Part shown: piece by piece, positions 2,897 through 50,951 of the stretch
Numbering within the stretch: position 1 is the stretch's first letter
How the letters are laid out: each line of letters opens with the position of its first letter
IMG/VR virus record: IMGVR_UViG_3300025000_002059
Coordinates: 23,960 to 87,959 of that record
Origin: a virus
Reading direction: 5' to 3' (one strand)
Length of the DNA: 64,000 nucleotides
The notes under the pieces: generated by a model
Told to the model about the DNA's origin: nothing
Seen by the model: only the letters and a program-made list of their open reading frames with translations
Databases searched by the model: none
Program-made: the position numbers and the translations under genes

Positions 2897-2944
2897 AACT
2901 CCATCCACCTTCCCAAAATATTGAAGAAAGGAGGTAATTCCTTT

Positions 2945-4555
2945 ATGAGCGATTTTCCTTTCGGAACTTATTTAGGATATAAATTCAATGGAGCTAATAG
3001 TTATGCACAGGTACCAGATAATGTAGCAATAGATCCAACTACTTACATTACAATTGAATGTCGATTTGCGCTTACCGTTCCTCTTCCATCACAAAGTTTT
3101 AATGCTGTTGAACTTGTACAAAAGATGGATGTTACAGTTACCACCAAAACTGGGTATGCAGTTTATTTAACAAAAGGCGGATCGTTAGTTTTTCTTCTCA
3201 AGGAATCAAATGATAGCACCTATAGGCAATTAGTATTTAGTGTTGGAACTACTTTCGATGATTTAAGATTACATGTTGTCACTTGTGTATACGATGGTTC
3301 CCATATCATAGCATATACCGATGGAGTCTTTGGGAGTCAAGTCGTTGCAACGGGATCAATCCAACAGGATACTGGTCAAAGTCTTAATATTGGTGGATTT
3401 AGAATAGGAACCAGTCCACCAAATACGAATTTCTTTAACGGTTTTATTGATGAAGTAAGAATATGGGATACGGCTAGGACACCAACGGAAATTAGTGATA
3501 ATGCTTGGAATCAACTTACTGGTGCTGAATCTGGACTAGTTGGGTATTGGAAATTTAATGAAAATAGCGGTACAGTGGCAACGGATTCATCGCCATCGGG
3601 AAATGATGGAACACTTTCCAACACTAAGCGATTAGCCTTAAATTATACTCCAGCAGTTGATGCTAATTTTTCAGCACAAAATCCTACATTAATTTTTGAT
3701 CAGATCGTTTCACCAACTGCATCTGTATCAACTTTTATAGCTTCCAATCCTACATTAATTTTTGATCAGACTGTTTCGCCAACTGCATCAGTCGCAACTT
3801 TTTCTGCTCAAGATCCAATAATTAAAGAAACGATTCAGGCAAGTCCTGCATCGGCAACATTCTCCATCCCAAACGCAACGATAATTGCCGGAGCTGTTAC
3901 GATTCAGGCAAGTCCTGCATCGGCAACATTCTCCATCCCAAACGCAACGATAATTGCCGGAGCTGTTACGATTCAGGCAAATCCTGCCTTTGCAGCTTTT
4001 ACGGCAAATTCAATTAAGGTAAATCTTGTTATCGAACCTAGCCCTTCAATAATAAATTTCGTCGTTGGAACTCCAACGATTAGATTAACTCAGCAAGCAA
4101 TGCCAAGTGTCATAACTTTAGCGTTACCACCACCGACTATCACAGTGGGAGCAGTAACGGTTCAAGCTACCCCAGCAGTAGCTACTTTTTCAGCCAATGC
4201 TATAACAACAACACTCACCATAAGCACTACCCCAGCAGTAGCTACTTTTTCAGCTAATTCACCAACTATCACAGTGGGAGTAGTAACGGTTCAAGCTACC
4301 CCAGCAGTAGCTACTTTTTCAGCTAATTCACCAACTATCACAGTGGGAGCAGTAACGGTTCAAGCTACCCCAGCAGTAGCGCTATTTACATTGCCAACTC
4401 CAACTATATTAATGGATCAAATAGTATTTCCTGATCCAGCGATAGCAACATTTAGTATTCCAACTCCCACAGTATTTGTTGTTAGAATTACGATCAGTTT
4501 CGGAGTTAAGATATTTAATGAGATCAATTACCATGTCATTATCGAAAATAGTTGA
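2945..4555 (+). CDS. LamG/concanavalin-like adhesin with C-terminal beta repeats
   Basis: 536 residues from the ATG after AAAGGAGG (2929-2937); an upstream in-frame TTG at 2921 precedes the ribosome site and is unlikely. Residues ~10-220 form a LamG/ConA-like jellyroll (YLGYKFNGANSY, VTCVYDGSHIIAYTDG, FFNGFIDEVRIWDTART, GLVGYWKFNENSG), typical of tail proteins that bind glycans. The rest is made of short strands of the type ATPAVATFSANSPTI repeated about ten times. The repeats include a 69-bp tandem duplication (3832-3900 and 3901-3969). Probably a tail fibre or adhesin that meets the host surface. Confidence 0.8.
   Translation: MSDFPFGTYLGYKFNGANSYAQVPDNVAIDPTTYITIECRFALTVPLPSQSFNAVELVQKMDVTVTTKTGYAVYLTKGGSLVFLLKESNDSTYRQLVFSVGTTFDDLRLHVVTCVYDGSHIIAYTDGVFGSQVVATGSIQQDTGQSLNIGGFRIGTSPPNTNFFNGFIDEVRIWDTARTPTEISDNAWNQLTGAESGLVGYWKFNENSGTVATDSSPSGNDGTLSNTKRLALNYTPAVDANFSAQNPTLIFDQIVSPTASVSTFIASNPTLIFDQTVSPTASVATFSAQDPIIKETIQASPASATFSIPNATIIAGAVTIQASPASATFSIPNATIIAGAVTIQANPAFAAFTANSIKVNLVIEPSPSIINFVVGTPTIRLTQQAMPSVITLALPPPTITVGAVTVQATPAVATFSANAITTTLTISTTPAVATFSANSPTITVGVVTVQATPAVATFSANSPTITVGAVTVQATPAVALFTLPTPTILMDQIVFPDPAIATFSIPTPTVFVVRITISFGVKIFNEINYHVIIENS
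3832..3969 (+). repeat. 69-bp in-frame tandem duplication in the adhesin gene
   Basis: Two essentially identical 69-bp units, starting GATTCAGGCAAGTCC at 3832 and again at 3901, encode 23 residues each. A third, diverged unit starts at 3970. Identity at the DNA level indicates a recent slippage or unequal exchange. Confidence 0.85.
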
Positions 4556-17246: not shown

Positions 17247-17542
17247 TGCTAGTTAATGGAACTCCGGCTATTGCAGATATTAAGAGTCAGTGTTCAATTA
17301 TTCCCGGATTTGAATTTAACTACATCGCTTACAAGGGGAAAGTATTGTGGAGCACGGTATCGGCATCGCTTGATGATTATTTCATTTATCTTTATGACGG
17401 ACCAAATTATAAAAATGGGTGGGATCCATATACGGTAGCCTGCGTAGATGAACACGGTGATCTGTTTTACTACGGTCGCTGGACGAAATTAAAAAATGCA
17501 CTTGCATGGCTTGCGGATCCAAACATGCCAGAAAGGGACTAA
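17243..17542 (+). CDS. Hypothetical protein
   Basis: 99 residues: SIIPGFEFNYIAYKGKVLWS, DDYFIYLYDGPNYKNGWDPY, CVDEHGDLFYYGRWTKLKNALAWL. The start overlaps the XRE gene stop (ATGATG). No family recognised. Conserved-looking aromatic residues suggest a real small folded protein. Confidence 0.6.
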   Translation: MMLVNGTPAIADIKSQCSIIPGFEFNYIAYKGKVLWSTVSASLDDYFIYLYDGPNYKNGWDPYTVACVDEHGDLFYYGRWTKLKNALAWLADPNMPERD

Positions 17543-17547
17543 AGCAA

Positions 17548-18309
17548 TTGGAGACACTAGCGGTAATAAACCAAAAGGGCGGCGTAGCCAAAACTACAAC
17601 GAGCGTGAATATGGCGGCCATAATAGCCGCCATGGGATTCAAGACATTACTTATTGATGTGGATCCGCAAGCTAATCTTTCCCAATCCTTGGGCATTGTT
17701 GCCTTTGATATGGGAACACCTAATCTTTTCGAGGATCCGAAAATAACACTTAGCAAGTGCGTTAATGAAACAAGCATAACGAAATTATCCATTATTCCAT
17801 CGGACCTATCACTAGCACAAGTTGAATGGGAACTTTTGAAAACATTTAAAGGCACCAATACTTCTATTCTGCGAGACAAGATCAAGGCAAGTGAGGAAGA
17901 ATTTGATTATTGCATTATCGACTGCCCGCCAAGCTTAGGAATTTTCAGCCTTAATGCGCTCATTGCAGCGGACCGTGTGCTTATCCCGGTTGGTCTTGAT
18001 CCGTTCGGATTGATTGGAATAAAGTATCTAGTGAGCACGATCACTGATATCAGAATGAGTATAAACAAGCATCTCAAAATTCTGGGCATTGCACGGACCA
18101 TGTGGGATATGCGGCAGAGACTTGGACGAGAAATCAGCGAAAGTATGGAAAAGGATTATCCGGGAAAAGTCCTTGAGACGATTATAAAAATGAATGTAAG
18201 CGTCAAGGAAAGTGCTGTTGCCCAAATGCCACTGGTCATTTATGAGCCAAATGCTCCGGCTGCGCTGCAATACATTCAATTAACGAATGAAGTGTTACAG
18301 AGATGGTGA
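17548..18309 (+). CDS. parA: ParA-type partition ATPase
   Basis: 253 residues from a TTG preceded by AAAGGG; an upstream ATG at 17506 lies inside the previous gene. LAVINQKGGVAKTTTSVNMA is the deviant Walker A with signature lysine, LLIDVDPQANLS is Walker A', and YCIIDCPPSLGIFSLNAL is Walker B. These ATPases position DNA by forming ATP-dependent gradients on the nucleoid, driven by a centromere-binding partner. The RHH gene overlapping its 3' end is the likely partner. This indicates an extrachromosomal state at some stage. Confidence 0.92.
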   Translation: METLAVINQKGGVAKTTTSVNMAAIIAAMGFKTLLIDVDPQANLSQSLGIVAFDMGTPNLFEDPKITLSKCVNETSITKLSIIPSDLSLAQVEWELLKTFKGTNTSILRDKIKASEEEFDYCIIDCPPSLGIFSLNALIAADRVLIPVGLDPFGLIGIKYLVSTITDIRMSINKHLKILGIARTMWDMRQRLGREISESMEKDYPGKVLETIIKMNVSVKESAVAQMPLVIYEPNAPAALQYIQLTNEVLQRW

Positions 18310-18584
18310 GAAAACAGGGTAGGCCAAATATTCAAGCAATGCTGGAAGGAATCGATCTGGATAATAAGGAAGTACAGGAAGAAAAGCCAGATAAGTCAGA
18401 GGTAGAAGCGATAGCTGAACCGGACTTAAATGAAAAACTAAAGCGATGCTATGTAGTAACAGGATTTCATCTTGAAAAAATAATGCTTCTAAAGACCAAA
18501 AAATACAGAAAATATGATATGAGCGAAATTGTCTGTATGGCGATTGATTCATTTTTTGAAAAAGAAATGAACGGAGAGAAGTAA
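18303..18584 (+). CDS. Ribbon-helix-helix centromere-binding protein (ParB/ParG-like)
   Basis: 93 residues. The N-terminus (RKQGRPNIQAML and an acidic, flexible linker) is followed by a C-terminal RHH fold: KRCYVVTGFHLEKIMLLKTK then MSEIVCMAIDSFFEKEM. An unstructured N-terminus plus C-terminal RHH is the plan of ParG/omega-type partners that stimulate ParA and bind repeated centromere sites. It overlaps parA by 7 bp. The nearby 36-bp repeat arrays are a possible target, so far untested. Confidence 0.75.
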   Translation: MVRKQGRPNIQAMLEGIDLDNKEVQEEKPDKSEVEAIAEPDLNEKLKRCYVVTGFHLEKIMLLKTKKYRKYDMSEIVCMAIDSFFEKEMNGEK

Positions 18585-18590
18585 TACAAT

Positions 18591-19349
18591 ATGATTGAAG
18601 AAATAGATGACCAAATATTTACCATGACAAGTGATCTCTCGGATGAAGAACTGGTCGATTTTGCAGCTGGGATATTTAAGAGCAATTGGAAAACATCATA
18701 CGATTACCAGAAAACGGATCCTATTATATTTCAAAGCTTGCCGATCGATGGGAAAATACTTAAGCATACCGATTTTTTGTCTTCGGCTGTTTATATATCA
18801 GAACTAACACAAAAGGCATTATCCTATAGATGGAATGAGATAGGAGGTCTAGCCGGGAAAGAACTGAAGGAGTGGGATGCCAATGGCGGCCTTTGTATTT
18901 ATCTATCCATTTTGCATTTTTGTTTACTGCTGGAAAGCAAAGCCGTAAAAGAGAATGAACTATGCTTAGTCCAAGGATTTTATAGGCATCCAACACACGG
19001 AATACTCAGTATATTCTCAAATCTGGGAACTCAATGCGGAGTTCATGCCTTTATAAGCGTTCAGGGAGCGGTTGTTGATTTTTCGATACAGCAAGAAGCA
19101 TCAACGTTCGAATTTGGAGAAAAAGAATTCATTATTGGCGATATCCCAGATGAGATGGAGATGGTCGGCTGGACAGAAGGAAAGCATTTAGTCAAGCAAT
19201 ATGCGCGTGAGATAGCCCGGAGCAGCGGACTTAATTATTTTGAATGGATTGAACAGCACAAAATCAATTCATATAAACTTGCAAGCAAAGAACTTAACAA
19301 AGAGCTTGTAAGGCTTAAAAGATTATATAAAAGTTTGGAGGATGAATGA
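18591..19349 (+). CDS. Hypothetical protein with possible Cys-His-Asp arrangement
   Basis: 252 residues. The central part has GGLCIYLSILHFCLLL (Cys at the start of a helix), QGFYRHPTHG, then CGVHAFISVQGAVVDFSIQQ, an order (Cys, His, Asp) seen in papain/transglutaminase-like folds. The match is only a pattern, so enzymatic activity is not claimed. The C-terminus is helical (KINSYKLASKELNKELVRLK). It is co-transcribed with partition genes. Confidence 0.55.
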   Translation: MIEEIDDQIFTMTSDLSDEELVDFAAGIFKSNWKTSYDYQKTDPIIFQSLPIDGKILKHTDFLSSAVYISELTQKALSYRWNEIGGLAGKELKEWDANGGLCIYLSILHFCLLLESKAVKENELCLVQGFYRHPTHGILSIFSNLGTQCGVHAFISVQGAVVDFSIQQEASTFEFGEKEFIIGDIPDEMEMVGWTEGKHLVKQYAREIARSSGLNYFEWIEQHKINSYKLASKELNKELVRLKRLYKSLEDE

Positions 19350-19352: not shown

Positions 19353-20408
19353 ATGGCTAGGAAAAAGAATGAAGAAGAAGTCACCCTAACCAATCAGGAA
19401 ATGATTCAAAAAGAAGAGCGCCATAGAAAAGATTTAGAAAATAAACTAAAGGCATCGGAAGCATCAGCGGAAGATCAGAAACAATTTACTCCCTTGGTCA
19501 AACTTACTAAGGATTTAAGAAGCGCAAGCCGGACATTGAATCCACAAGAAGCCCGGTATCTAGTGGACAGGTACTACCAAATCCAACAATACCGGACCAG
19601 CGCCAAGAATCAGATTAGAGCATCGGAAAGCGAAGAACCAAATGAAGTTATTGTCTGGTTTGCAGAGAACTTTGAGGAACTGGAGAAGAACATAAAAAAG
19701 GCGCTGGATGCTTATACGAGTAGTCATCCGGTCGGAGCTTGGGCCAAATCGGTGATCGGCGTAGGTCCGACATTCGCAGCCGGGCTTCTAGCGCACATTG
19801 ATGCGAAGAAAGCACCAACAGCCGGAGCCGTGTGGAGTTACGCAGGATATAATCCAAGTGTTGAATGGTTAAAAGGTCAGAAGCGTCCATGGAATGCTGA
19901 TTTAAAAAAACTATGTTATCTCATAGGTGAATCATTTGTAAAGGTTTCCAATAATCCTAAAGATATCTATGGTAAATTATATCGCCAAAGAAAAGATCAG
20001 GAGATAGCGAAGAATATAGCGGGAGAATTTGCGGAACAAGCAATATCAAAGCTGGAGAAATTCAAGATAGGTAAAGATACTGATGCTTACATATGGTATG
20101 CAGGATGTCTGACTGAAGATAAAGCCAGAGCAATTCTTCTGGGTGAAAAATCCGGATCAGCCAAAAGTCTAGCGGGAGAAAAGGATTCTGGGATTCGTAT
20201 GCTTCCACCAGCACATATCAACGAGCGGTCCAAGCGATATGCTGTTAAAATATTCCTAGCCCATTTTCATGAGGTCTTATTTGAATATGAATTTGGGACC
20301 AAGCCACCAAATCCATATGCTATCTCAATCCTGGGACATGCACATAAGCTGGAAGTTCCAAACTATGAAGTATTTAAAAAAGCGATGGAAGAAGATCCGT
20401 CACTATAG
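19353..20408 (+). CDS. Protein with IS110-type Transposase_20 (HhH) domain, no DEDD nuclease
   Basis: 351 residues. Residues ~130-195 match the C-terminal Transposase_20 domain of IS110/IS116 transposases: VIGVGPTFAAGLLAHID, GAVWSYAGYNPSVEWLKG and DLKKLCYLIGESFVKV. The N-terminus is charged helix (KEERHRKDLENKLKASEASA) instead of the RuvC-like DEDD domain, and the serine expected in a catalytic Tnp domain is not evident. The C-terminus has KRYAVKIFLAHFHEVLFEYE and PYAISILGHAHKLEVPNY, a pattern seen in phage homologues. It is probably a DNA- or RNA-binding protein. Array 1 begins about 30 bp after its stop. Confidence 0.75.
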   Translation: MARKKNEEEVTLTNQEMIQKEERHRKDLENKLKASEASAEDQKQFTPLVKLTKDLRSASRTLNPQEARYLVDRYYQIQQYRTSAKNQIRASESEEPNEVIVWFAENFEELEKNIKKALDAYTSSHPVGAWAKSVIGVGPTFAAGLLAHIDAKKAPTAGAVWSYAGYNPSVEWLKGQKRPWNADLKKLCYLIGESFVKVSNNPKDIYGKLYRQRKDQEIAKNIAGEFAEQAISKLEKFKIGKDTDAYIWYAGCLTEDKARAILLGEKSGSAKSLAGEKDSGIRMLPPAHINERSKRYAVKIFLAHFHEVLFEYEFGTKPPNPYAISILGHAHKLEVPNYEVFKKAMEEDPSL

Positions 20409-20439
20409 CCAAGTTACTTTGATTTTAAACAAAGCCATT

Positions 20440-21148
20440 GAGCGAACCATCAGACAAGAGAGTATCAACAATAGAAGAGTGAGCCAACAAGCGTGAGCTA
20501 ATTGCATCCCATAAAAGCGAGCCACTAACCATGAATTATGCAACGAAAGAAAGCGAGCCATAGCAACAGATTACCCCATCTCGACGAGAGCGAGCCAATG
20601 GTCTATGAAAGCAGAATTGACCATCAAACAAGAGTGAACCGTGTGCAAAGATTGTATCAATTAGGAGAAGTGAGTCATTAGATTAGAATAGCACCATATC
20701 CGCAAAGCGAGCCGTTAGATCAGAAATTTATTTTATTCATTCCCATTGAGTGAGCCAAGAGCCAAGGTATACGAAAGCACCAACAACAACGAGCGAGTCA
20801 TCCGATATGAAATTAGATACAAATGCGTTGAGCGATCCAAAATGAATTGTAGCGAAACAAAGCGAACCATGGGTATGGAGAAATACCATTTATCTCCGAG
20901 TGAACCAAAAAATTAGAATAAATCGCCAAAGTAGAGTGAGCCATATGAAATAGATTAAATCACACTCTAAGAGCGAGCCAAGCTAACTTAATATAAAATG
21001 AACGAACCAGAATGCTTGATTGGGACAAAAATAACGAGTGAGCCACTAAAGGGAATTATAATATTTAATCAAAAAATGCAATGAGCGAAACAAAATATTT
21101 TGATCGAACCATTATAAAGGAGATATTCCGGGGATAACGAGTGAGTCA
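20440..21148 (+). repeat. Array 1a: 36-bp repeats with 10-bp RARYGARYCA motif
   Basis: Motif ends fall at 20449, 20486, 20524, 20560, 20597, 20641, 20677 and 20714, so spacing is 36-38 with one 44. Halfway (18 bp) lies a weaker motif, such as GAGAGTATCA ending 20467, GATTGTATCA ending 20659 and ATAGCACCA ending 20695. The intervening 8-bp segments are not conserved. All units point right. Stops occur in all frames over the stretch. About 20 units by length. Confidence 0.9.
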
Positions 21149-21151
21149 TGC

Positions 21152-21444
21152 AGGAAAGCGTGATGGGATGTTGGCTTAGAAGCAGCCATGGCTGGAAGGC
21201 TGATTGCTTTATGCAATCCATCTAAGGAGTGGGGCGATGGCTATTTGTGACTTGATTGTTTTTCCACATTATTAGCAATCTGAACCCGATGAGGGAAAAT
21301 GAATGTGGTAGTGTTACGATGATACCGATGCATTTGTAGTGACAAGGTAACATAAAAGCTGCAAATGAAGGAAAGCGTATAGCTTGGGAGTTGCTTTAGA
21401 GTTACACTTGGTTATCCCTTTTGGCGTAATAGCACACCATCACA
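21152..21444 (+). ncRNA. Structured RNA module resembling the 23S rRNA GTPase-associated centre
   Basis: From 21166, 24 bases are identical to bacterial 23S rRNA helix 43; they start GGATGTTGGCTTAGAAGCAG and end CCAT. TGGCT (21172-21176) pairs with AGCCA (21184-21188) around the TAGAAGC loop that holds A1067 in E. coli. GCGTAATAGC at 21424-21433 equals the helix 44 loop (A1095). GTGATGG (21160-21166) pairs with CCATCAC (21437-21443) to close the element. The ~230-nt insert has CCACATT/AATGTGG, GATTGC/GCAATC and CATTTGTAG/CTGCAAATG stems, and TGTTAC/GTAACA crosses the last as a pseudoknot. A second, imperfect helix 44 copy (GAAAGCGTATAGCT) is at 21371-21384. No protein is encoded. Confidence 0.7.
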
Positions 21445-22304
21445 TGAGTCATGCGGAATGATTGAACGAAATAGTGAGTGAACCATCAATAATGACCGGA
21501 ACATTGTGTCAGAGTGAGCCACGATATAAGAATAGCAACATTAATAGTTGGAGCGAACCAATCAAGCCGAAAATTAACATTCCCTATGAGTGAGTCAGGT
21601 ATATTTATGAAAAATATGAACGAGTCGAAGGAAGTAAGGGTACCAATCTCATAGAGCGAGCCATAAGGAATAATGGCAACATCACAGGAAAGCGAACCAC
21701 TAATAGCGAGTTACATCATTATACGAGAGTGAACCGTCAGAAGCGAAACTAAGTATCATATATTCAGAGTGAATCGGGATATTGGAGAGCACCACACATA
21801 CTGAGTGAATCAGGACTATGGAAAGCAGCAGATAAGCCGAGTGAGCCGAATAATGGGATAGCACCACGCTGGTTAAGCGAGCCATTGAAGGAAATAGGAT
21901 CAGAAATGCAGAGCGAGCCGCAGGATGTAAAAGCACAATAAAAAGAGAGCGAGCCAGACCAACCGAAAGCAGTATTGAGCGAGAGCGAGCCAGAGGAAAA
22001 AGATTAATTCATTGCAGGACAACGAGCCATAACTACAGATTAACGACAAGATTATAAGAGCGAACCAAAATCACGCTTAAATAAAATTGAAACATTAGCG
22101 AGTGAGTCATAGGACTTGATTGAATCACCCCATCGGAGCGATCCATATTAAGCGAGAATAACCAGCGTAGGTTGAGTGAGCCAAATGGAAGCGAGAGTAC
22201 CAATTGCATAGAGTGAGCCAGAACTGGTGATTAAAATCATTAATGCGAGAGCGAACCATGGCAAGAGAGGACCACAAATATAGAGTGATTCAAAAGCGAG
22301 GAAT
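21445..22304 (+). repeat. Array 1b: continuation of 36-bp repeats
   Basis: Same motif and orientation as array 1a, about 24 units by length (for example GAGTGAGCCA near 21515 and AAGCGAACCA near 21690). Half-unit motifs such as GATAGCACCA and GAGAGCACCA remain visible at 18 bp. It runs into the ribosome site of the embedded gene at 22310. Confidence 0.9.
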
Positions 22305-22309
22305 TATCG

Positions 22310-22594
22310 ATGAGAGATTTAATCAGTTATGATGAGATGCTAGAAAACAAGGATAAGCTAAAAACCATATTCCTCGATTTCAAGGCACGGTATTATGCTT
22401 TGGGCAAGAAGCAGAATGGAAAATTTAAAACGAGTGATCTTGACCGATTAATCCGGGAGACGATCGCAGAATTAAAAGGCAAAGAAAAACTTATTGCCGA
22501 AGGATTTCTGGAATTCGTGCTGGGATTTTTATTCAACAGCTCGTGGGATTCTACGAAGGCTTTTAATTCTGTAGATAAAATGTTTAACTGGTAG
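22310..22594 (+). CDS. Hypothetical protein embedded in array 1
   Basis: 94 residues: SYDEMLENKDKLKTIFLDFK, KTSDLDRLIRETIAELKGKE and GFLEFVLGFLFNSSW. Composition and a GCGAGGA ribosome site support a real gene; that site is also a remnant of the array motif. The array stops before it and resumes about 35 bp after it. No family recognised. Confidence 0.6.
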   Translation: MRDLISYDEMLENKDKLKTIFLDFKARYYALGKKQNGKFKTSDLDRLIRETIAELKGKEKLIAEGFLEFVLGFLFNSSWDSTKAFNSVDKMFNW

Positions 22595-22629
22595 ATAAAT
22601 TTAGCCAAAACAGATGATAGTATCACGGC

Positions 22630-23030
22630 ATCCAAGCGAACCATTGACTATCGCCGGAAAGCGAGCCAATTCACACGACTAAAAACAAGATACTGAAGCG
22701 AACCAGAGGAAAAGACTATTTCATTACAGGAAAGTGAGCCGGACCAATTGATAAATACATTAAATGAGAGTGAGCCACGGTTAGGGACAATTTCAATTAT
22801 TAGAAGCGAGTCAAACAGATAAGATTTCCATTTAAAGAGAGCGATCCATTTCAGATGACAGTAACAGCCTTTACGAGTGAGCCAGAAAATAGGATAGCAT
22901 CATTATGCGAAAGCGAGCCAAGTGCATGAAGATATAAACCATTAAACGAGATCGAACCAGTAGACAAGGAAAGTATCATGATCATAAAGTGAGCCAAACA
23001 CCATGATTAGTAACATTATGGACAAGCGGA
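22630..23030 (+). repeat. Array 1c: 36-bp repeats
   Basis: About 11 units. Well-formed examples: GAGTGAGCCA then GATAGCATCA 18 bp later then AAGCGAGCCA 18 bp later (around 22875-22920). Same orientation. Confidence 0.88.
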
Positions 23031-23057
23031 CTAATACACCCTTGGGAGGTGGAACGA

Positions 23058-23495
23058 TTGGACCACGAAATATCATACCCAGAAAAGAAATGTCCCGGAT
23101 GCGGAAATGATAATCTACTGGATGGACCGCGAGGTGGACTATCTCAAAATGTCTTATGCCCGGAATGCCAAAGAGAATGGAACTATGGACCATTTGGGTA
23201 TGAAGAAATCAGCCCGGCACGAACATACTTATACCGAGTTGTGTCTCCAAAACTTGATCTGCGGATCATCCCAGTAGGATGCAAGCCGGGATGCTGTGGG
23301 GAAACATATCCATGCATTGATGAGGTAGCCATGATTATAGAACAGGGCAATCTTGCCTTTATGATTCACGGCGAGCACGTTAAGGAGCAGTTAGAGAAAC
23401 TAGAATACAGAATTGATGTAACGAGTCATAACAACATACCGATTGGAATGTATATATCTGAAAAGGGATCAAAAAGCGTGTACGAAAGATTTTAG
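23058..23495 (+). CDS. Zinc-ribbon protein embedded in array 1
   Basis: 145 residues from a TTG five bases after GGGAGGTGG. An N-terminal zinc ribbon has CPGCGNDNLL near residue 12 and CPECQREWNYG near 34. A second Cys cluster, GCKPGCCGETYPC, is near residue 77. The C-terminal half is alpha/beta (VAMIIEQGNLAFMIHGEHV). Likely nucleic-acid or protein binding. Its placement inside the array suggests a functional link but does not prove one. Confidence 0.65.
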   Translation: MDHEISYPEKKCPGCGNDNLLDGPRGGLSQNVLCPECQREWNYGPFGYEEISPARTYLYRVVSPKLDLRIIPVGCKPGCCGETYPCIDEVAMIIEQGNLAFMIHGEHVKEQLEKLEYRIDVTSHNNIPIGMYISEKGSKSVYERF

Positions 23496-23514
23496 CCAGC
23501 ACATGAGAAAATCC

Positions 23515-23745
23515 AGAGATCGTGAGCGAATCAATTGATGAAAAAAGCAACATTACTCCGGAGTGAACCGATTGAAATGATGATCCATTGACCAAGAGTG
23601 AGCCAATATCTATGAGCCACCCAATTTAAAGTAGCGAGCCATCCCAAAGGATTTTTCAATTCCACGGAAGCGAGCCATTATAAGGCGATATTTCAGTCCA
23701 CGGGAGCGATCCAATTCACCAGTCTAATATTTCTTGGAGTGAAAA
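23515..23745 (+). repeat. Array 1d: 36-bp repeats
   Basis: About six units (GAGTGAACCG, GAGTGAGCCA, AAGCGAGCCA, GAGCGATCCA). Half motifs include ATATTTCAGT-type variants. It ends at the ribosome site of the next gene. Confidence 0.85.
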
Positions 23746-23752
23746 TATTTTT

Positions 23753-24127
23753 ATGGATAGACTGCGAAATGAGCGAAAGGCCAACGGTTTATGTGCTCAA
23801 TGTGGAACTAAACTTGATAGGATTGGGAGATATTGCAAAAAATGCAATACTTCAGGGAATATTAATAAGCACAAACGTTGCCTAAAGCTTTATGCAATCG
23901 GTTTATGTACTACTTGCGCTGAGCCATTAGACAGAGATGGTTGGTTTTGCTCAAGGTGTGCAAACAACTTAAAACTTAGGGCAAGAGTTAGAGACACAGA
24001 AAGAAGATTAAAAGGATTATGCGTTCAGTGTGGCGCTTGGGCAGATGGGTATTCCTATTGCCAACGCTGCAGGGATATGAGGATGGAGAGATATCACTCA
24101 AAGAAAAGGTCCATTCACCAAGAGTGA
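23753..24127 (+). CDS. Triple zinc-ribbon protein embedded in array 1
   Basis: 124 residues made of three tandem Cys4 units: GLCAQCGTKLDRIGRYCKKC, GLCTTCAEPLDRDGWFCSRC and GLCVQCGAWADGYSYCQRC, joined by basic linkers (NKHKRCLKL; RARVRDTERRLK). The whole protein is strongly basic, suggesting nucleic-acid binding. GGAGTGA, an array-motif derivative, serves as ribosome site. Its repeated binding units would suit a repeated target, such as the array around it (inference). Confidence 0.7.
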   Translation: MDRLRNERKANGLCAQCGTKLDRIGRYCKKCNTSGNINKHKRCLKLYAIGLCTTCAEPLDRDGWFCSRCANNLKLRARVRDTERRLKGLCVQCGAWADGYSYCQRCRDMRMERYHSKKRSIHQE

Positions 24128-24355
24128 GTGAGCCAATATTGGATTTTTACATTAGAGAAAGAGCGAATCAAACAGATATTATTTTTCAGATACCAAGAGT
24201 GAGCCAATTATGATGACAGAAACAACCCAAGAAAGCGAGTCAATGAATACGAACTTTATCAACAGATATGAAGCGAGCCATAACAATGAAGTATAACCAT
24301 CATCCAAGAGCGAGCCTAAGCAATTGATCACCCCACACTCACTGAGCGATTGAAG
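24120..24355 (+). repeat. Array 1e: last part of array 1
   Basis: About six units (GAGTGAGCCA, GAGCGAATCA, GAGTGAGCCA, AAGCGAGTCA, AAGCGAGCCA, GAGCGAGCCT), overlapping the 3' end of the triple zinc-ribbon gene. The repeats fade before the ribosome site of the next gene. Confidence 0.85.
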
Positions 24356-32114: not shown

Positions 32115-32648
32115 ATGACTATAAAAGTACCACGGCAATGGCTTTGTATGGGGAAAACTCAGATATTGAATAATATGTTTGAGCCGATTCAAAATAGACC
32201 AGATGCGGTCCTAAAACCATATGGCGGGCTTTGGGTATCTCCATATGTACGGAATGGGAAATATAAAAGTCACTGGCACGAATGGTGTGAACAGAATAAA
32301 TTTATGACAAGCACCGAAGGAACGATAATAAGACTCCAAGATAATCTAAATGTCTATATAATAAATTCGCAAATTGACTTAATGAAACTTATAGAAGAAG
32401 TTGGAGAATATAATCCATTTCTGGGATTAGGCTTTGAGCCATGGAAAACGATAGATTTTGAAGAAGCAGCCAAACGATATGATCTGATTTATTTAACAAG
32501 GCAAGGATTAAATTGCACTAGACTTCCATTTATGAATCAGAAATTTAACTTATATACATGGGATGTATCTTGCGCGATTTTATTTCATTTTGGGTGCATA
32601 AAAGGGCAATTCCCTACGAAGGTACGCGCTCCTGAAGAGTTAGACTAA
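32115..32648 (+). CDS. Conserved phage/bacterial protein, possible ADP-ribosyltransferase-like fold
   Basis: 177 residues. The pattern KPYGGLWVSPY, then SHWHEWCEQNKF, NVYIINSQIDL, FEEAAKRYDLIYLTRQGLNC and LYTWDVSCAILF recalls a widespread family of hypothetical proteins (K-GGLW-S, W-WC, YD-LT-G--TR, LY-WD). An ADP-ribosyltransferase-like fold is a possible reading of the GLW/YD-LT pattern, but this is an inference without structural support. It overlaps the convergent gene by 35 bp. Confidence 0.5.
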   Translation: MTIKVPRQWLCMGKTQILNNMFEPIQNRPDAVLKPYGGLWVSPYVRNGKYKSHWHEWCEQNKFMTSTEGTIIRLQDNLNVYIINSQIDLMKLIEEVGEYNPFLGLGFEPWKTIDFEEAAKRYDLIYLTRQGLNCTRLPFMNQKFNLYTWDVSCAILFHFGCIKGQFPTKVRAPEELD

Positions 32649-33666
32649 TCTCAAAATCACTTTCTTGGCCTTCAACAAATAATTCCAAGCGCGTGAAAAG
32701 AGATTTAATCTGGTCTGCTCTATAAATATTTTTAAGAGATATTCTGAGTAATTCAATTTCAGGTTTTTTGACTTCAACCAAAGTTAATTGACTTGGAGGA
32801 ATTTCTTCTTGATCCATCTTATCAACTACTTCCTCTTTTTTCACTATTGCATTTTCATTGCTTGGTGGAACTAGGGGAACCACTTTCTTTACACGTTCCT
32901 TGTATTTACGTTTAGGAGGTGTAGTTTCTGAATTAGCAGCAGCACCTTGGCCTTCAGCAGAGTCAGCAGCTGCTTTATCATTATCCCTTTTCGTCTGTGC
33001 TTGATTCAGTCTATTGTCTCTAAAATTACGCAATACATCTAAAGCATCATCACCAACTAAAATTTGCTTTCCTTTCCGGGCAACTTTAAAATTCCATGAT
33101 AGTTCTGATAATTGAGCGGGAGCACAATCAAGACCTTTGAGTATTTCAGTCGTTGTATGAAGTCTCCTTAATTCAGCGTAGATCTTTTGACCTTCTTTAT
33201 ATTCAATAGCGTTGAGTTCGGAGACTTTTATCCATTCTCCATATTGTATCCTTTTCATCCAATCCAAATTAAAAATACAAGATAATTCTAATATTTGCTC
33301 TAAAGAACAGTCTAATGCATTTTGTAATTCAACTATGTCATATATTTTCCTGAGTTCATTATAAACTTGAGCACCATCTTGAATAGGTAATTCTTTAAGT
33401 TCATCAATCGTAATTTGTTCTCTACTTTTTACCTTCTCCATTAATTCCAACAATTTCATCTCCCTTAGAGTTGTGATAAAACAAGGACCAGCACCCATAA
33501 TTAATCGTCTTTGAAATTTATCAGGTTCCTGTTCGGATGGCATTTTGACGGATTCATGTTTACGGAGCCGGGCGGCCCTACCGTGAATACCATTTCCAGT
33601 CTTTTTCTTTTCCCTGACATCCTGATTAAAAATCCATTCAACATCTTCGTTATAGATCCCAATCAC
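32614..33666 (-). CDS. Phage protein with N-terminal basic motif and repeated helical region
   Basis: 350 residues. The N-terminus (NQDVREKKKTGNGIHGRAAR, KHESVKMPSE) resembles a motif found at the start of several Firmicute phage proteins. Two related ~60-residue units follow (IQDGAQVYNELRKIYDIVEL; YKEGQKIYAELRRLHTTTEI), each paired with a LDCS/LDCA turn. A low-complexity linker rich in Ala/Lys/Pro precedes an acidic C-terminus. It may regulate gene expression, but no function is established. Confidence 0.55.
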   Translation of the reverse strand: MIGIYNEDVEWIFNQDVREKKKTGNGIHGRAARLRKHESVKMPSEQEPDKFQRRLIMGAGPCFITTLREMKLLELMEKVKSREQITIDELKELPIQDGAQVYNELRKIYDIVELQNALDCSLEQILELSCIFNLDWMKRIQYGEWIKVSELNAIEYKEGQKIYAELRRLHTTTEILKGLDCAPAQLSELSWNFKVARKGKQILVGDDALDVLRNFRDNRLNQAQTKRDNDKAAADSAEGQGAAANSETTPPKRKYKERVKKVVPLVPPSNENAIVKKEEVVDKMDQEEIPPSQLTLVEVKKPEIELLRISLKNIYRADQIKSLFTRLELFVEGQESDFEISLTLQERVPS

Positions 33667-33823: not shown

Positions 33824-34030
33824 ATGGCTTTGACACTTTGGTCCGGCAGAGGAACATGGGAAGGCTGGAAAATACGGAAGCAATATCAAGGCTGCAAATT
33901 TGGAGAGTCCGTCCTTGTGGATCCCGATGGAGTGCCATACAGTCCCAGCGATATACTAGCGAGCAGAAATTCTGCAAATCTTTCTGAAAAAGAGAAAATT
34001 AATAAAAGCAATAAATCGATAAAGGAATAA
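33824..34030 (+). CDS. Hypothetical protein
   Basis: 68 residues: MALTLWSGRGTWEGWKIRKQ, KFGESVLVDPDGVPYSPSDI and a basic, low-complexity tail (EKEKINKSNKSIKE) that runs into the octamer repeats. The first ~50 residues look genuine. Function unknown. Confidence 0.55.
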   Translation: MALTLWSGRGTWEGWKIRKQYQGCKFGESVLVDPDGVPYSPSDILASRNSANLSEKEKINKSNKSIKE

Positions 34031-34460
34031 ATCCATAAATCCATATAAGAATATATCGATACATCCATAAAGGAATATTTGCTGAAGATTCTATTTAATA
34101 GACAGAATGAAAGAATTGGATTTTGTTTATAAGTTTAGGATTTTATGTAAATATTCCATTTTTTAGTGATTGCGTATCGATATCCATATATCAATATATC
34201 CATATATCCATACGGAGCATAATTATCGTAAGAATCAATTCCTGATCGCGACGAGTAGCCTAACATTTTCTGTCAAATTGTCTAAGAGTGTATTCCTATC
34301 CATATATCAATACATCCATATATCAATACAAGAGGGACTTATGGACCAAATATGTAATTTAATGGATTCTTTCAAATTGTAGGCAAACAGAATATTCTCA
34401 AATCTATACATCAATAAATCCATATTTCCATAAATCAATATATCGATAAATCAATACAGA
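34014..34460 (+). repeat. AT-rich octamer repeat region (possible origin or AT-rich unwinding element)
   Basis: Four clusters (about 34014-34075, 34178-34217, 34298-34340, 34400-34460) consist of variants of ATATCCAT/AAATCAAT in an 8-bp period, for example ATCCATATATCAATACATCC. Between the clusters the sequence is AT-rich without genes. Such iterons plus the following dyads suggest an origin, unwinding region or regulator target. Confidence 0.65.
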
Positions 34461-34747: not shown

Positions 34748-34776
34748 CTATGCTATAATAATTACATAGGACAAGT
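34748..34776 (+). promoter_or_regulatory. Promoter directing transcription into array 2
   Basis: TATAAT (34754-34759) and GGACAA (34769-34774) lie 36 bp before the first array unit. The -35 is weak. The same TATAAT/GGACAA combination precedes several genes, so array 2 is probably transcribed. Confidence 0.55.
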
Positions 34777-34810
34777 ATAAGCCATGAACTGCGATTAAAT
34801 CAATTATTGT

Positions 34811-36970
34811 AAGCGAGCCAAGAATAGAGATTTTACAGAATTTTGAGCGAGTCAACTAGGTAGATTTTTTCAAATGTCCAAAGCGAACCAAAGCGCTTGA
34901 GAGCGCCAAAATTGGCAAGTGAACCATCAGTAGCAATAGTGCCAAACTATCAGAGTGAGCCAAAGTATTTGAGTTAAAATCATAAAAAGGTAAGTGAGTC
35001 ATCGAACCAGATTATAAACATTGAAGAATAGCGAACCATTTTTGATTAAGAGAGTGAGTCAAAGTTTCCGATCGTACCTAAGTAAGGGAGCGAGTCCAAA
35101 GGTTTTTCAGTGTACCAGAAAGAGGGAGCGAGTCATACCAAACAGAAAAAAGAACGAACCACGAACATAGACTTATTCATTTTACGAGAGTGAGCTAATA
35201 ATGCCGATAGCAACAAAAACAGTGAACGAGCCAAGAATACTGAGAGTACCATATTTCGAGAGCGAGCCAGTAAGATGGGTATTTCCAAAAAAGAGAAGCG
35301 AGCCAAGAACTCTGATATCCCAGACCAAGCAAGCGAGTCAAGGTTTCCGACCATACCCAAACGTAAGGGATCGAGTCAAGGTTTCCGAGTGCACCGAAAT
35401 TAGGGATCGAGACATGATAGCTGATTTAATCGTAAATAATGATCGTTTCAATCCACGCACCAGAAATGAGGTGCGACAATAAATATAAGTGAGCCAGCTG
35501 CATTGAGATTACCAATGTAGAGAAGCGAACCAACGAATGTGATTAGTTTACAATTGAAGAGTGAACCACACGATAAGATGTCACCGTATGTTTGGAGTGA
35601 GCCAAAGAATTAAAAAAACATTATATGCAAGCGAACCAAAAACCTTAGACAATATCAAACCCCAAGAGTGAGTCAAGCTTTCCGAGAGGTCCAGAACGGA
35701 TGAACGAATCATGTTTCGTGAGAGCACCAGAAACATGGAGTGAGCCAAGAACACTGAGATACCAATTGCGAGAGAGCGAGCCAATAACTACGATCGATCA
35801 CTGAAAAGAAGCGAACCAGTGTTGCTGGATTTGAGCAAAGTCTCTGAGTGAGTCATGGAGACAGGATAAGATCCAAATATGTCATGACTTTCTATTAGTC
35901 GTGTGGGATTGAAACATAGCTGCTAAACGAGCCAAAATATAGAATAGCAACATTAATAGTGGAGCGAACCATGGCGAATGATAATGACAATTTCCATTGA
36001 GTGAACCATTAGGAATGAGAGAACCAGTTAAATGAGTGAACCATGTATCGTGAAAAATTTCAAGCGTTACGAGTGAGCCAACAGAGTTAATCATTACAAT
36101 TGTTCAGAGCGAATCATTAAACTTGATTGTATCAGAGGTTAGAAGTGAATCAATGGGACGGAGAGTACCACAAACCATTAGTGAGCCATTCAATCGGAGA
36201 GCACCGTAAAGAACGAATCATAAGCGGCGAAAGAATCAGAACCTCGAAGTGAACCATGTATTGTGATATTTCATAATCTGTGAAGTGAGCCATCATTAGG
36301 GATTGTTTCAATTATTAGGAGTGAACCACTTTTTGTGAGAAACACAGCGATATAAGGGTGAGCCAAGAACACCGACAGTCAACAAAGCCACAAAGCGAAC
36401 CAATGTTGGAGAGAGCACCGTGCCATTCGAGTGAACCGATGTCGCACCATTTTTAAACAGAGCGAGCCAATGACGATGGAGAGCACCATGATCACGGAGC
36501 GAACCACCATTAGGGATAGTAACATATTTTTGGAGTGAGCCGAGGATACTGACATTTAAACCAGATGGAAAGAGTGAGCCAAAGTATCCGAATACAACAA
36601 CCTTCTAGAGCGAGTCACCCCACAAGAGCACACCCATGTCCGTTAAGCGATCCATCAAGGCATAGAGCACCATCAAGCATGAGTGAATCGACATTCGTGA
36701 GATACCCAATACTTGTGAGTGAGCCAGCATATCTGAATATTTCAATAGTCGTGAGTGAGCCACTGCCGCAAGATAATACCATGTCCATAGAGCGATCCAC
36801 TACGCAAGATAGCACCACAACTGTAGAGTGAACCATCGGGGAGAATTAATCATCGGTTAGAAGTGAGTCATTAAACTTGATAGCACCATATCCGCAAATC
36901 GAGCCAATCATGCTGAATATTTCAATGAGCCAGAGTGATCCAATTATTTAGATCGAATCAATAAATCTGA
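34811..36970 (+). repeat. Array 2: 36-bp repeats with RARYGARYCA motif
   Basis: About 60 units in one orientation. Measured motif ends 35197, 35233, 35269, 35305, 35340, 35378 and 35414 give spacings 36, 36, 36, 35, 38 and 36. A half-unit motif lies 18 bp from each (GAGAGTACCA ends 35251, midway between 35233 and 35269). The second half of each unit often reads TGAGAGNACCA or ATATTTCA. All frames contain stops; short open stretches with SEP or ARS every 12 residues are by-products of the period. Confidence 0.92.
35415..35486 (+). other. Non-repeat insert with GC hairpin inside array 2
   Basis: Here the array is interrupted: the next motif end comes 82 bp after the previous one. The insert contains CGCACC pairing with GGTGCG around an 8-nt loop (about 35456-35475). 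It may be a processing site, a small insertion or a decayed unit. Confidence 0.4.
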
Positions 36971-37130
36971 GTGACCAAAAATGAACAAAGAAGTCTTACA
37001 ATATGGCAACATATGTGATAATGTATGGATAAGCCAACGCTGCTGGCGAACTTGACTAGAGTACCAGATGCCAGCAAAACGAGTCGACAATGATGAGTGA
37101 CCAACAATAATGAGCGTAAAAATTGAACAA
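36971..37130 (+). repeat. Degenerate end of array 2
   Basis: Motif copies are weaker (GAGTGACCAA near 36970 and 37096, GAGCGTAAA near 37112). TGCTGGC (about 37042) can pair with GCCAGCA (about 37071), giving a stem around a diverged unit. Confidence 0.5.
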
Positions 37131-37322: not shown

Positions 37323-37362
37323 AAAGTCGGGTCAGTATCTTTAGCTGGCCCGGCTTTTTTTG
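37323..37362 (+). terminator. Rho-independent terminator downstream of array 2
   Basis: AAAGTCGGGTCAG pairs with CTGGCCCGGCTTT (two G-U pairs) around a 9-nt loop, followed by seven T. Together with the promoter at 34754 it would define a noncoding transcript of about 2.6 kb. Confidence 0.88.
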
Positions 37363-46083: not shown

Positions 46084-46857
46084 TCAGGTGCCATTGATTC
46101 TTAGTTGTTCGCGCAATAATTGAAGTTCTTTCCTATCTGTCATATGATCCCTCACATTATCTCCTTGTGTTCCTAGTCTTAGATTATCGGGATCATTATT
46201 TAACTTATCTCCGTCACGATGCCTAACGACAATTCCCGGTTGTATCGCTTTAGTTCCATATTTTTGTAATGCAATTAAGCGATGTTCATAATAATAATTT
46301 CTGTGAATCTTTAGATGTTTTTTAGCCAATTCTCGAAGTTCTGGTGTGAGATTATCTTTATGAATTTCTCTGTATCCATTTGTAATCATAATGCCATTAT
46401 TTTTTTTTGGATGTTCCTGATATTTTTTAGAACAAGACATACATTTAGTATTTAAGTCATGTCTTAACGATTGAACATTTTTCCATCGTTCCTCACCGCA
46501 ATGAGGACAATAGGATAATATGCAATGTAATCTTTTCTTTCCAATTTCATAAAGATACATTCCCTGCCTACGATAATTAACAATTATCATCTTTTTGTGA
46601 TCATCAAATTCCCCTATGAAACAATATTTGGTTCTTGGGAGATGACGATGTTCAGAGCAGTATGTCTTGCGTTCTCTGACGGAATTAGAAAATACTGATT
46701 TATGAATATATCTTCCAAATCCACAATAAGGGCAGATAGCCCAAAGTTTATTTCCTTTAGTAAGTGAAAAATCAAAAAGTTGTTCAGATTGCATATTAAA
46801 AATGATATCCATATTAAATTCTTCAACAATATAGTGTTGAGTATTTTTTTTAAACAT
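46084..46857 (-). CDS. HNH homing endonuclease
   Basis: 257 residues from the ATG after GGAAAGG. Several Cys pairs (CPYCGFG, CPHCGEERW, CMSCSKKY) are followed by the HNH nuclease core: YEHRLIALQKYGTKAIQPG, IVVRHRDGDKLNNDPDNLRL and GTQGDNVRDH (H, N and H ligands present). It is inserted opposite to all neighbours, as free-standing homing endonucleases often are near terminase genes. It probably spreads itself and may have helped the adjoining cargo move. Confidence 0.85.
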   Translation of the reverse strand: MFKKNTQHYIVEEFNMDIIFNMQSEQLFDFSLTKGNKLWAICPYCGFGRYIHKSVFSNSVRERKTYCSEHRHLPRTKYCFIGEFDDHKKMIIVNYRRQGMYLYEIGKKRLHCILSYCPHCGEERWKNVQSLRHDLNTKCMSCSKKYQEHPKKNNGIMITNGYREIHKDNLTPELRELAKKHLKIHRNYYYEHRLIALQKYGTKAIQPGIVVRHRDGDKLNNDPDNLRLGTQGDNVRDHMTDRKELQLLREQLRINGT

Positions 46858-46941
46858 TAAATTAATCCTTTCCACCGAATACTTAAGTATACCATACGAT
46901 ATAATTAAGTATTAGTGGAAATAAAAGGAGTTAATAAATTG

Positions 46942-47898
46942 ATGATCGCAGATAAGACGATTTTAATCACAGGTGGTACAGGAACTTTTGGTCAAAAATA
47001 TACAGAATGGCTAATAAAACATAAGGGAGTAAAACGAATTATTATATTTTCTAGAGATGAATTAAAGCAACATGATATGAAACAAAAATTTAAAGATGAG
47101 CGAATACGTTATTTTATAGGTGATGTAAGAAATCAAAATCGATTAGAAAGGGCATTCAATGAAGTAGATATTGTAATTCATGCTGCAGCACTAAAGCAAG
47201 TCCCAGCTTGCGAGTATAATCCTTGGGAAGCAGTCCAAACAAATGTAATCGGAACACAGAATATAATCGAGGCATCTATTAATAAAAAAGTTAGTAGATG
47301 TCTTTTGCTCAGTACAGATAAAAGCTGCATGGCTTCAAACACATATGGAAAAACAAAAGCTCTAGCCGAATCTTTATTTATAAACGGCAATGCATATGCG
47401 AGCGGGACCAAGACCAGATTCAGTTGTGTTCGTTATGGAAACGTTACCGGATCGCGGGGAAGCATAATCCCTTTGATGGAAAAGCTTCGGGACAGCGGAC
47501 AGCCGATCACTATCACCGATGATCGGATGACAAGATTCTGGCTGGAACCTGAAAGGGCATGTGAAATAGTTTCGTCAGCAATTCAGATGATGTATGGCGG
47601 GGAAATATTTATACCCAAAATACCCAGTGTTCGAATTTTAGATTTGAAGCAGGCTATAGCGCCAGAGTCAGAGATTAAATTTATTGGGATCCGGGAAGGC
47701 GAAAAACTGCATGAGTCCTTAATAAGCGAGCAGGAAGCACCGATGACGATCGATGCCGGGGAGTTCTATGTTATAGAAAGCCCGCAAGATTGGTTCCAGA
47801 GAGGACGCATAAAAGGAATTCATTTTGAAAAGGAAAGATATGTAAGTAATGAAAATGAAAACTTTCTTAGCATTGAAGAAATTCAGGCTGGGATTTAG
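46942..47898 (+). CDS. pseB: UDP-GlcNAc 4,6-dehydratase (PseB/LegB-like)
   Basis: 318 residues from an ATG after AAAAGGAG (a TTG one codon before is possible). TILITGGTGTFGQKYTEWLI is the NAD(P)-binding Rossmann start, FSRDELKQHDM is typical of the PseB group, and HAAALKQVPACEYNPWEAV then LLLSTDKSCMASNTYGKTKA hold the D-K and Y-X-X-X-K catalytic residues. The enzyme makes the 4-keto-6-deoxy UDP sugar that starts nonulosonic acid (pseudaminic/legionaminic) synthesis. The usual NP(I/M)N before YG is replaced by CMASN. First gene of the sugar cargo. Confidence 0.88.
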   Translation: MIADKTILITGGTGTFGQKYTEWLIKHKGVKRIIIFSRDELKQHDMKQKFKDERIRYFIGDVRNQNRLERAFNEVDIVIHAAALKQVPACEYNPWEAVQTNVIGTQNIIEASINKKVSRCLLLSTDKSCMASNTYGKTKALAESLFINGNAYASGTKTRFSCVRYGNVTGSRGSIIPLMEKLRDSGQPITITDDRMTRFWLEPERACEIVSSAIQMMYGGEIFIPKIPSVRILDLKQAIAPESEIKFIGIREGEKLHESLISEQEAPMTIDAGEFYVIESPQDWFQRGRIKGIHFEKERYVSNENENFLSIEEIQAGI

Positions 47899-47927
47899 TC
47901 AACCGAGCTGAGAGCACCATGAGAAGC

Positions 47928-48226
47928 GAACGAACCATGGAACAAGAAAAAAGCGTTATGTAGAAGTGAGCCAAATTTAAAGAGTGTACCAATGAACATG
48001 AACGAACCAAAAGGTCGGACTGAAACAATTCAAAAGAGTGAGCTATCTTGAATGGATTGAGACATTGAATGGGAGCGAACCAAAATCATTAAAAAATCAT
48101 GTTTAGTGAGTGAGCCAAACGAATGGAGAGCACCGCATTATAAGAGCGAACCATATAGATGGAGAATCCCAAATAGCAAGAAGTGAGCCAATACTCCTGA
48201 GAGTACCACATTCCGAGAGCGAGCCA
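47928..48226 (+). repeat. Array 3: 36-bp repeats
   Basis: Nine units. Motif ends 47937, 47973, 48009, 48045, 48082, 48117, 48153, 48190 and 48226, spacings 36, 36, 36, 37, 35, 36, 37 and 36. A half motif, GAGTACCA, ends at 48208, exactly midway between the last two. Same orientation as arrays 1 and 2. It fills the gap between the dehydratase and the next ParB-methyltransferase. Confidence 0.93.
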
Positions 48227-48258
48227 TGACGATGAGATAAACATTAGAAGGTGAGCGT

Positions 48259-49844: not shown

Positions 49845-50927
49845 ATGATTCCCTATGCAAGACACAAACTGCAGGCCGAAGACATGATGGAAGTCTTAAG
49901 AATACTTCAAAGTCCAAGCATCACCCAAGGACCGATGATCGAATGGTTTGAGGATGTATTCAGGAAATCGGTCGGAGCGAACTATGCCATAGCGGTAACG
50001 AGCGGGACCGCAGCACTTCATGCGGCACTCATGGCAGCCGAGATCGGACCGGGCGATGAAGTAATAGTGCCATCAATGACCTTTGTCGCAACGGCAAACG
50101 CTGTCAGATACCTTAATGCAATTCCAGTATTCGCAGACGTTGACGAAGAAACGCTGCTTATTAATTACCAAGATGTCGAGTCAAAAATAACCCAAAAGAC
50201 AAAAGCAATTATAACGATGGATTATGCTGGGCAGCCAGCAGATTATGATGAATTCAGAGAACTAGCTGACAGGTACCATTTAATATTAATAGCTGATGCC
50301 TGCCATTCACTGGGAGCAACATATAAAGACGAAAAGGTAGGAACGCTGGCCGATTTGAATTGCTTTAGCTTACACGCCACCAAGCTTATAACGAGTGGTG
50401 AAGGTGGAGTCATAACAACACCTTATAAAAAATATTACGACCGGATGCGAGCATTTAGAGATCATGGAAGAGTTAATGGTGAGATGCAGTATCTGGGATT
50501 TAATTATAGAATGACAAACTTTCAAGCTGGCCTATGTATTCACCAGATCGAACGAATAGAAAGTCTTGTAGAGAAGAGACAAGAACTAGCCAATATTTAT
50601 GAAGATGCACTAAAAGATTTAGACATTAGATTATTAAAACAGAAGGAAGACAGAATAAGTGCCCGGCACATATTTGTAATTAAGACAGATTTTCAGAAAG
50701 AATTTATAGTCAAGTTATCCGATTATGGAATCGGAACTCAAATTCATTATAAGCCAGTCAATCTACAACCGTTTTATAATAGTCCGGGATCGACACCGAT
50801 CGCAGAAAACATGTGGACAAAGATGATTACAATCCCACTTTATACGGAATTGAGTGATGAAGAACAAATAACTGTTATAAGAGCGCTCCATACTGCAGAT
50901 GCCAAACATAAGAAAGAAGATAGATAG
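49845..50927 (+). CDS. pseC: PLP-dependent aminotransferase, DegT/DnrJ/EryC1 family (PseC/LegC-like)
   Basis: 360 residues. AVTSGTAALHAALMAAEIGP, DEVIVPSMTFVATANAVRYL, ADACHSLGATYKDEKVG, and NCFSLHATKLITSGEGGVIT (PLP lysine in HATK) are the family blocks. It would transfer an amino group to the 4-keto sugar made by the dehydratase. It is followed by a terminator-like hairpin, and the spacing suggests a separate transcript from the sigma gene. Confidence 0.9.
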   Translation: MIPYARHKLQAEDMMEVLRILQSPSITQGPMIEWFEDVFRKSVGANYAIAVTSGTAALHAALMAAEIGPGDEVIVPSMTFVATANAVRYLNAIPVFADVDEETLLINYQDVESKITQKTKAIITMDYAGQPADYDEFRELADRYHLILIADACHSLGATYKDEKVGTLADLNCFSLHATKLITSGEGGVITTPYKKYYDRMRAFRDHGRVNGEMQYLGFNYRMTNFQAGLCIHQIERIESLVEKRQELANIYEDALKDLDIRLLKQKEDRISARHIFVIKTDFQKEFIVKLSDYGIGTQIHYKPVNLQPFYNSPGSTPIAENMWTKMITIPLYTELSDEEQITVIRALHTADAKHKKEDR

Positions 50928-50951
50928 AACGAGCAAATCGTTCTCTTTTTG
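50926..50951 (+). terminator. Rho-independent terminator
   Basis: AGAACGA pairs with TCGTTCT around GCAAA, followed by CTTTTTG. It starts at the aminotransferase stop codon. Confidence 0.78.

Follow-up and report, generated by a model that had tools for sequence, protein, structure and literature searches.

What kind of element keeps a short motif and its spacing over several kilobases while the DNA between the motifs varies? The question is raised by a 64,000-nucleotide stretch of viral DNA (IMG/VR record IMGVR_UViG_3300025000_002059, positions 23,960 to 87,959; hereafter the window), in which a 10-bp motif recurs with a 36-bp period over 20440–24355. A preliminary description of the window, made from the letters alone, knew of no described element of this kind. 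However, such arrays were described in 2025, as the dual-repeat tandem interspaced guide RNA (TIGR) arrays of Faure et al. (PMC12045711). These consist of alternating edge and loop repeats of 8–12 nt with two short spacers, give rise to 36-nt guide RNAs (tigRNAs) and adjoin a gene for a Nop-domain Tas protein (PMC12045711). The present locus has the features of these systems that can be tested in sequence: a Nop-domain Tas gene beside the array, two alternating short repeats in a 36-nt unit, box D/C-like repeat ends and covariation between edge repeats. We assign it with high confidence to the dual-repeat TIGR-Tas systems, in their nuclease-free TasA type; its carrier is a tailed phage of about 88 kb, and its guide set is unusually large and degenerate.

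The arrays are built from two alternating repeats

The edge repeat has a consensus of about GAGYGARYCA. The window contains 58 copies of this motif, each of them on the plus strand and within one of three arrays, against 0.85 copies in dinucleotide shuffles; a looser motif set gave 108 plus-strand and 0 minus-strand matches. The loop repeat, about GATAGNAYCA, alternates with it, and both have the form GA...YCA, in which the initial GA resembles box D and the final YCA box C. One unit comprises a 10-nt edge repeat, an 8-nt spacer A, a 10-nt loop repeat and an 8-nt spacer B, adding up to 36 nt. The commonest gap is 8 nt on both sides, exactly so in 83/139 A gaps and 90/142 B gaps.

Much of the preliminary description of array 1 stands. 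The motif ends that it listed (20449, 20486, 20524, 20560, 20597, 20641, 20677 and 20714) are exact in all eight cases, and the periods of 36 and 18 reappear in autocorrelation, with peaks at lag 36 (z 12.0) and lag 18 (z 10.2) in array 2 and at lag 36 (z 5.6) in the best block of array 1. The density of the motif is well apart from that of shuffled sequence, as the figures above show, and selection on the motif and its register is borne out. We also agree that the array is neither a tandem duplication nor a CRISPR (clustered regularly interspaced short palindromic repeats) array.

Modelling the arrays as chains in which two 10-nt motifs alternate gave three plus-strand chains, at 20422–23033 (array 1), 34757–36978 (array 2) and 47876–48262 (array 3), and none on the minus strand of the window; block-wise parsing extends array 1 to 24353. 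Arrays 2 and 3, which lay beyond the array first noted, belong to the same system. About 130 edge repeats score well, 65 in array 1, 57 in array 2 and 10 in array 3. The repeats are degenerate and their spacing is irregular in places, and Tandem Repeats Finder recovered fragments of the arrays only.

Neighbouring edge repeats covary as the two ends of one RNA

Position 7 of an edge repeat changes together with position 4 of the edge repeat that follows (7:4′). Over 89 units of the window phage the combinations are GC 43, AU 35, GU 6 and UU 5, with no A-C. The same pair in 391 units of five related phages, the window phage and four relatives, gave AU 217, GC 133, GU 23, UU 14, UA 2 and A-C 2, with a mutual information of 0.67 bits (z 143). 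Position 8 and position 3 of the next edge (8:3′) follow the same pattern more weakly (z 17). No correlation was seen between positions 7 and 4 of the same edge repeat, or between edges i and i+2.

In the 53 units with exact 8/8 spacing, on which structure was counted, 7:4′ shows 20 double changes, and none of 500 shuffles attained the observed number of paired cells, of double-changed cells or the covariation score of the structure as a whole. An independent array from a metagenome-assembled genome (L053) shows strong covariation at 8:3′ (AU 6, GC 5 and CG 1 of 13) and none within repeats.

The preliminary description had suggested a search for compensatory change between units, and 7:4′ is where it is found; its idea of an RNA register is likewise upheld. 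As the 7:4′ pair corresponds to the terminal pair of one tigRNA, the element would act as RNA. At the level of sequence, an RNA that begins halfway through one edge repeat and ends halfway through the following one is a simple explanation of the covariation, and it agrees with the extra edge–edge pair described in the TasR structure paper. The covariation supports a tigRNA composed of half an edge repeat, spacer A, the loop repeat, spacer B and half of the next edge repeat, while cutting at the edge repeats would follow the published system. With such unit-by-unit covariation, tigRNA ends can be tested from sequence alone, and degenerate arrays that escape repeat finders have a strong signature by which to search for them.

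The adjoining gene encodes a nuclease-free Tas protein

The open reading frame (ORF) at 19353–20408 on the plus strand encodes 351 residues and ends about 30 bp before array 1. In a sequence search against the PDB its best matches are TasR (9mty, 1.4e-12) and TasH (7e-8), and a profile of its family improves these to 1.3e-22 and 1.1e-12, respectively. An AlphaFold2 model (mean predicted local distance difference test score, pLDDT, 76.6) was compared with 350,542 chains by Foldseek; the top 11 matches are all TasH or TasR, followed by IS110 transposases. Pfam found no HNH or RuvC nuclease domain. From its sequence matches and predicted fold, the product is a TasA protein, a Tas protein with a Nop domain only; we assign it to TasA and not to the TasH or TasR subtypes because the N-terminal HNH or RuvC nuclease domain is missing. 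A TIGR-type array adjoins tasA in 14/14 relatives from IMG/VR and bacterial genomes (L024–L032 and L053–L057).

A single-spacer or ordinary CRISPR-like array, or a relative of the IS110 bridge RNA, would also place guide-like spacers between repeats, and the TasA ORF does have a weak Pfam match to the IS110 C-terminal domain (PF02371) and the PHROGs label transposase. However, the repeats here are short and of two alternating kinds with 8-nt spacers, no Cas protein was matched among the window ORFs scanned against Pfam and PHROGs, and Pfam found no IS110 DEDD domain in a protein that matches TasR and TasH better than IS110 transposases. The probability that we give to this explanation is close to nil.

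A distant Tas-like protein, often annotated as 'transposase' or 'DNA binding', also appears in 74 records of Mycobacterium phages (H3–H40). In one of them, phage Arlo (L316), inspection by eye of the gap upstream of the Tas homologue revealed no clear dual-repeat array.

Guide pairs are conserved between diverged phages

The four relatives are about 70% identical to the window phage in alignable DNA and carry giant arrays like its own, in 3–7 pieces each. Many units are shared between phages. Units that have the same spacer A in two phages are 92% identical in spacer B and 67% in the loop interior; for units with the same spacer B, the figures are 90% in spacer A and 69% in the loop interior. 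Unrelated units give baselines of 28.5% and 41%. Shared spacers are thus kept while loop interiors drift, which is direct evidence, as far as sequence comparison reaches, that the guides and not the repeats alone are under selection. The spacers had been described as not conserved; this is right within one genome, where they vary, and wrong between related phages, where they are strongly conserved.

Exact reuse of spacers within genomes is in excess when the role is kept (A-A 10 against about 0.75; B-B 9 against about 0.3), and reuse in the opposite role was found 0 times where 1.4 were expected. This pattern suggests that half-units are exchanged. For one guide pair, other phages have versions in which A and B have traded places, as a symmetric two-strand rule would allow. 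Half-unit reuse and the swap may be read as signs of how guides move.

The same TIGR-TasA system could consist largely of relics or neutral expansions, with most units decayed and few guides in use. Degenerate repeats, irregular spacing in places, and the ORFs and RNA-like insert within array 1 would suit such a history. Against it, 84/89 window units have intact terminal base pairs, and the shared guides are 90–92% identical where loop interiors are 67–69%; we consider largely relic arrays unlikely.

The conservation also bears on a DNA-level array of binding sites, of the iteron or centromere kind, in which a ParB-like or replication protein would occupy the double-stranded 10-bp motifs with the help of a nearby ParA. 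Indeed, the row of genes leading up to tasA and the array begins with a ParA-like gene, and the sites number hundreds, all in one orientation. However, base pairs covary between neighbouring repeats and not within them, spacers are better conserved than the interiors of loop repeats, the opposite of what binding sites should show, and the adjoining protein is a Tas protein. We regard a DNA-site array as extremely improbable, and the guide-bearing TIGR-TasA system as the explanation that accounts for these observations.

Search for guide targets and a proposed mechanism

We searched for sites composed of spacer B followed by the reverse complement of spacer A, B+rc(A), an order deduced from the 8-nt 3′ overhangs of the published rule, as well as for the opposite order, with gaps of 0–2 nt. 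The guides might act on the phage's own genome, in autoregulation or genome organisation; self-binding would be harmless without a TasA nuclease, and conserved own sites would fit the conservation of guides. But none of the five phage genomes has an exact B+rc(A) site at gap 0–2 beyond its arrays, and near matches to self, in both arrangements, show no excess over permuted spacer pairs (B+rc(A) at gap 2 gave 8 one-mismatch sites against 2.4 ± 1.8). Self-acting guides are, in our judgement, very unlikely.

In IMG/VR, three conserved guides yielded no convincing target and the matches were chance-like. The first guide pattern was found in 10 stretches, among which one contig recurs several times in near-identical form, and the other two in more than 100 stretches each, where no contig had a second convincing guide match and none resembled these phages. 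Scanning the other fetched loci (about 0.44 Mb) with the guides gave seeded matches only, and spacer variants show no codon (mod 3) pattern that would point to coding targets. The Escherichia coli ribosomal RNA (rRNA) operon, tried as a guide target, was rejected with a best match of 2 mismatches.

We propose that the arrays would be transcribed from the plus strand and the transcript cut once per edge repeat, as in the published system, into tigRNAs of about 36 nt. Each would run from the 3′ half of edge i through spacer A, the loop repeat and spacer B to the 5′ half of edge i+1, with the 7:4′ and 8:3′ pairs joining its two ends. By homology, a TasA dimer would grip the box D-like GA and the box C-like YCA in edge and loop repeats alike, and each of the two 8-nt spacers would pair with a different strand of one 16-bp DNA site. 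The nuclease-free TasA would most likely bind and bend this site and block transcription or replication, with no cutting.

Since guide pairs are kept across diverged phages and no self-target was found, the sites probably lie outside the phage, in conserved sequences belonging to the host or to rival elements. The missing nuclease and the conserved guides together lead us to infer that conserved non-self sites are blocked. A nuclease-free TIGR system with more than 100 guides, whose pairs are under purifying selection, may serve RNA-guided silencing of such host or rival-element sites; we hold this proposal tentatively, and rate it somewhat short of an even chance.

Three points weigh against our assignment and the mechanism built on it. 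Published arrays have far less variable repeats and far fewer units, and some of the units here may be decayed. The confidence of the TasA model is moderate, with TM-scores (template modelling scores) of 0.45–0.50 by query length. Lastly, the searches turned up no natural target, so that the rule of two-strand targeting is borrowed from TasR and TasH.

Features within and around the arrays

TasA is the last of four closely packed plus-strand genes. The first (17506–18309) encodes a ParA-like ATPase (Pfam AAA_31, 1.5e-50; PHROG ParA), followed by a small ORF (18303–18584) that is kept in the four relatives and a gene directly before tasA (18591–19349) for a 252-residue protein with 50–56% identity in relatives; neither of the two matched a family in Pfam or PHROGs. 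This gene order is retained in three relatives (G001, G002 and G004) and largely in the fourth. At distant tasA loci parA was not seen. The published survey associates TasA loci with a ParB-like gene (PMC12045711).

Array 1 had been taken for 3.9 kb of noncoding DNA. This holds for its five plus-strand blocks, at 20422–21148 (17 good edge repeats), 21442–22309 (23), 22598–23033 (12), 23505–23713 (6) and 24126–24353 (7), which are interrupted by a conserved 290-nt insert (21155–21445) and three plus-strand ORFs: one of 94 residues (22310–22594), a zinc-ribbon-like one of 148 residues (23049–23495) kept near the arrays of 4/4 relatives, and a double zinc ribbon of 124 residues (23753–24127). No convincing terminator was found downstream of array 1.

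The RNA-like insert, also on the plus strand, copies at both ends the GTPase-associated centre (L11 site) of 23S rRNA, GUGAUGGGAUGUUGGCUUAGAAGCAGCCAU ... GGCGUAAUAGCACACCAUCAC, but in place of the middle helix it has roughly 150–350 nt; a 26-nt stretch of its 5′ part is identical to E. coli 23S rRNA. It recurs in genomes G002 (70144–70422) and G003 (87008–87290), in Xanthomonas phage XacN1 (L317) and in L324, where it sits among tRNA genes. Full or partial copies, mostly unannotated, were found in XacN1, L324, GAP32, CBB, pf16, Astolliot, Aeromonas 4_4572 and Erwinia SNUABM phages. No Rfam family matched the insert. From these sequences, it is possible that it is a phage mimic of the ribosome's factor-binding RNA, which may be unreported.

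Array 2 (plus strand, 34757–36978, 57 good edge repeats) is directly preceded by an extended -10 promoter-like sequence, TGCTATAAT (34751–34759, plus strand), and about 345 bp past its end stands a strong intrinsic terminator-like hairpin of 14 pairs (37323–37357, plus strand). Just upstream of array 2, at 34005–34456, lie 8-bp units of about ATATCCAT/ATCAATAC, with autocorrelation at 8, 16 and 24, unlike the TIGR repeats. A search for relatives of ORF 32614–33666, a candidate partner of array 2, returned none. Array 3 (plus strand, 47876–48262, 10 good edge repeats) overlaps with its ends the ends of the flanking ORFs on both sides, and an HNH endonuclease gene, perhaps of homing type, lies on the opposite strand about 1 kb before it (46084–46875).

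Elsewhere in the window, a plus-strand gene row at 49845–58428 resembles, from translations only, genes for an aminotransferase, a NeuB-like synthase, a cytidylyltransferase and a methyltransferase (surface glycan synthesis). A plus-strand ORF at 2921–4555 has two families of near-identical 69-bp repeats and probably encodes a structural or adhesion protein.

Comparison with known systems

The closest likeness is to TIGR-Tas systems with TasA, such as FpTIGR of Flavonifractor plautii. Both have a Nop-only Tas protein with the array next to tas, commonly in a phage setting; repeats of about 10 nt, edge and loop alternating, with two short spacers per 36-nt unit; and an additional edge–edge base pair with covariation support. 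Published arrays mostly have 5–15 units with repeats conserved within the locus, typically followed by an intrinsic terminator, and spacers of about 9 nt, with exceptions up to 12 and 8 in SpTIGR (PMC12045711). Here, in contrast, there are about 130 edge repeats in three arrays at up to 27 kb from tas, the repeats are degenerate within the locus, ORFs interrupt the array and the spacers are 8 nt. The covariation is visible unit by unit inside one genome, and the neighbour is ParA and not ParB-like.

TIGR-TasH of Salicola phage CGphi29, one of two cultured-phage groups with a detectable Tas match, likewise has 16 nt of spacer per unit (PMC12045711), but its TasH bears an HNH nuclease, whereas the phage TasA described here lacks a nuclease domain. 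CRISPR arrays share repeats and variable guides on one strand; they differ in having one repeat of 25–36 nt, spacers of similar size and cas genes, where this locus has 10-nt repeats of two alternating kinds, 8-nt spacers and covariation between neighbouring repeats. IS110 bridge RNAs and box C/D small nucleolar ribonucleoproteins have the Nop/IS110 RNA-binding fold and a dual-guide logic in common with it. Unlike IS110, this TasA has no DEDD domain or recombination unit, and unlike the box C/D particles, no K-turn or fibrillarin partner is described for TIGR; an Rfam scan of the window gave no match.

Which sites TIGR-TasA systems target, and how the arrays originate and evolve, have been named as open questions (PMC12045711), and this phage group, whose five genomes hold about 400 readable guides, offers means to attack both. 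The kind of element is already known; the variant is unusual in its number of units, its degeneracy, its spread over three loci and the conservation of its guides.

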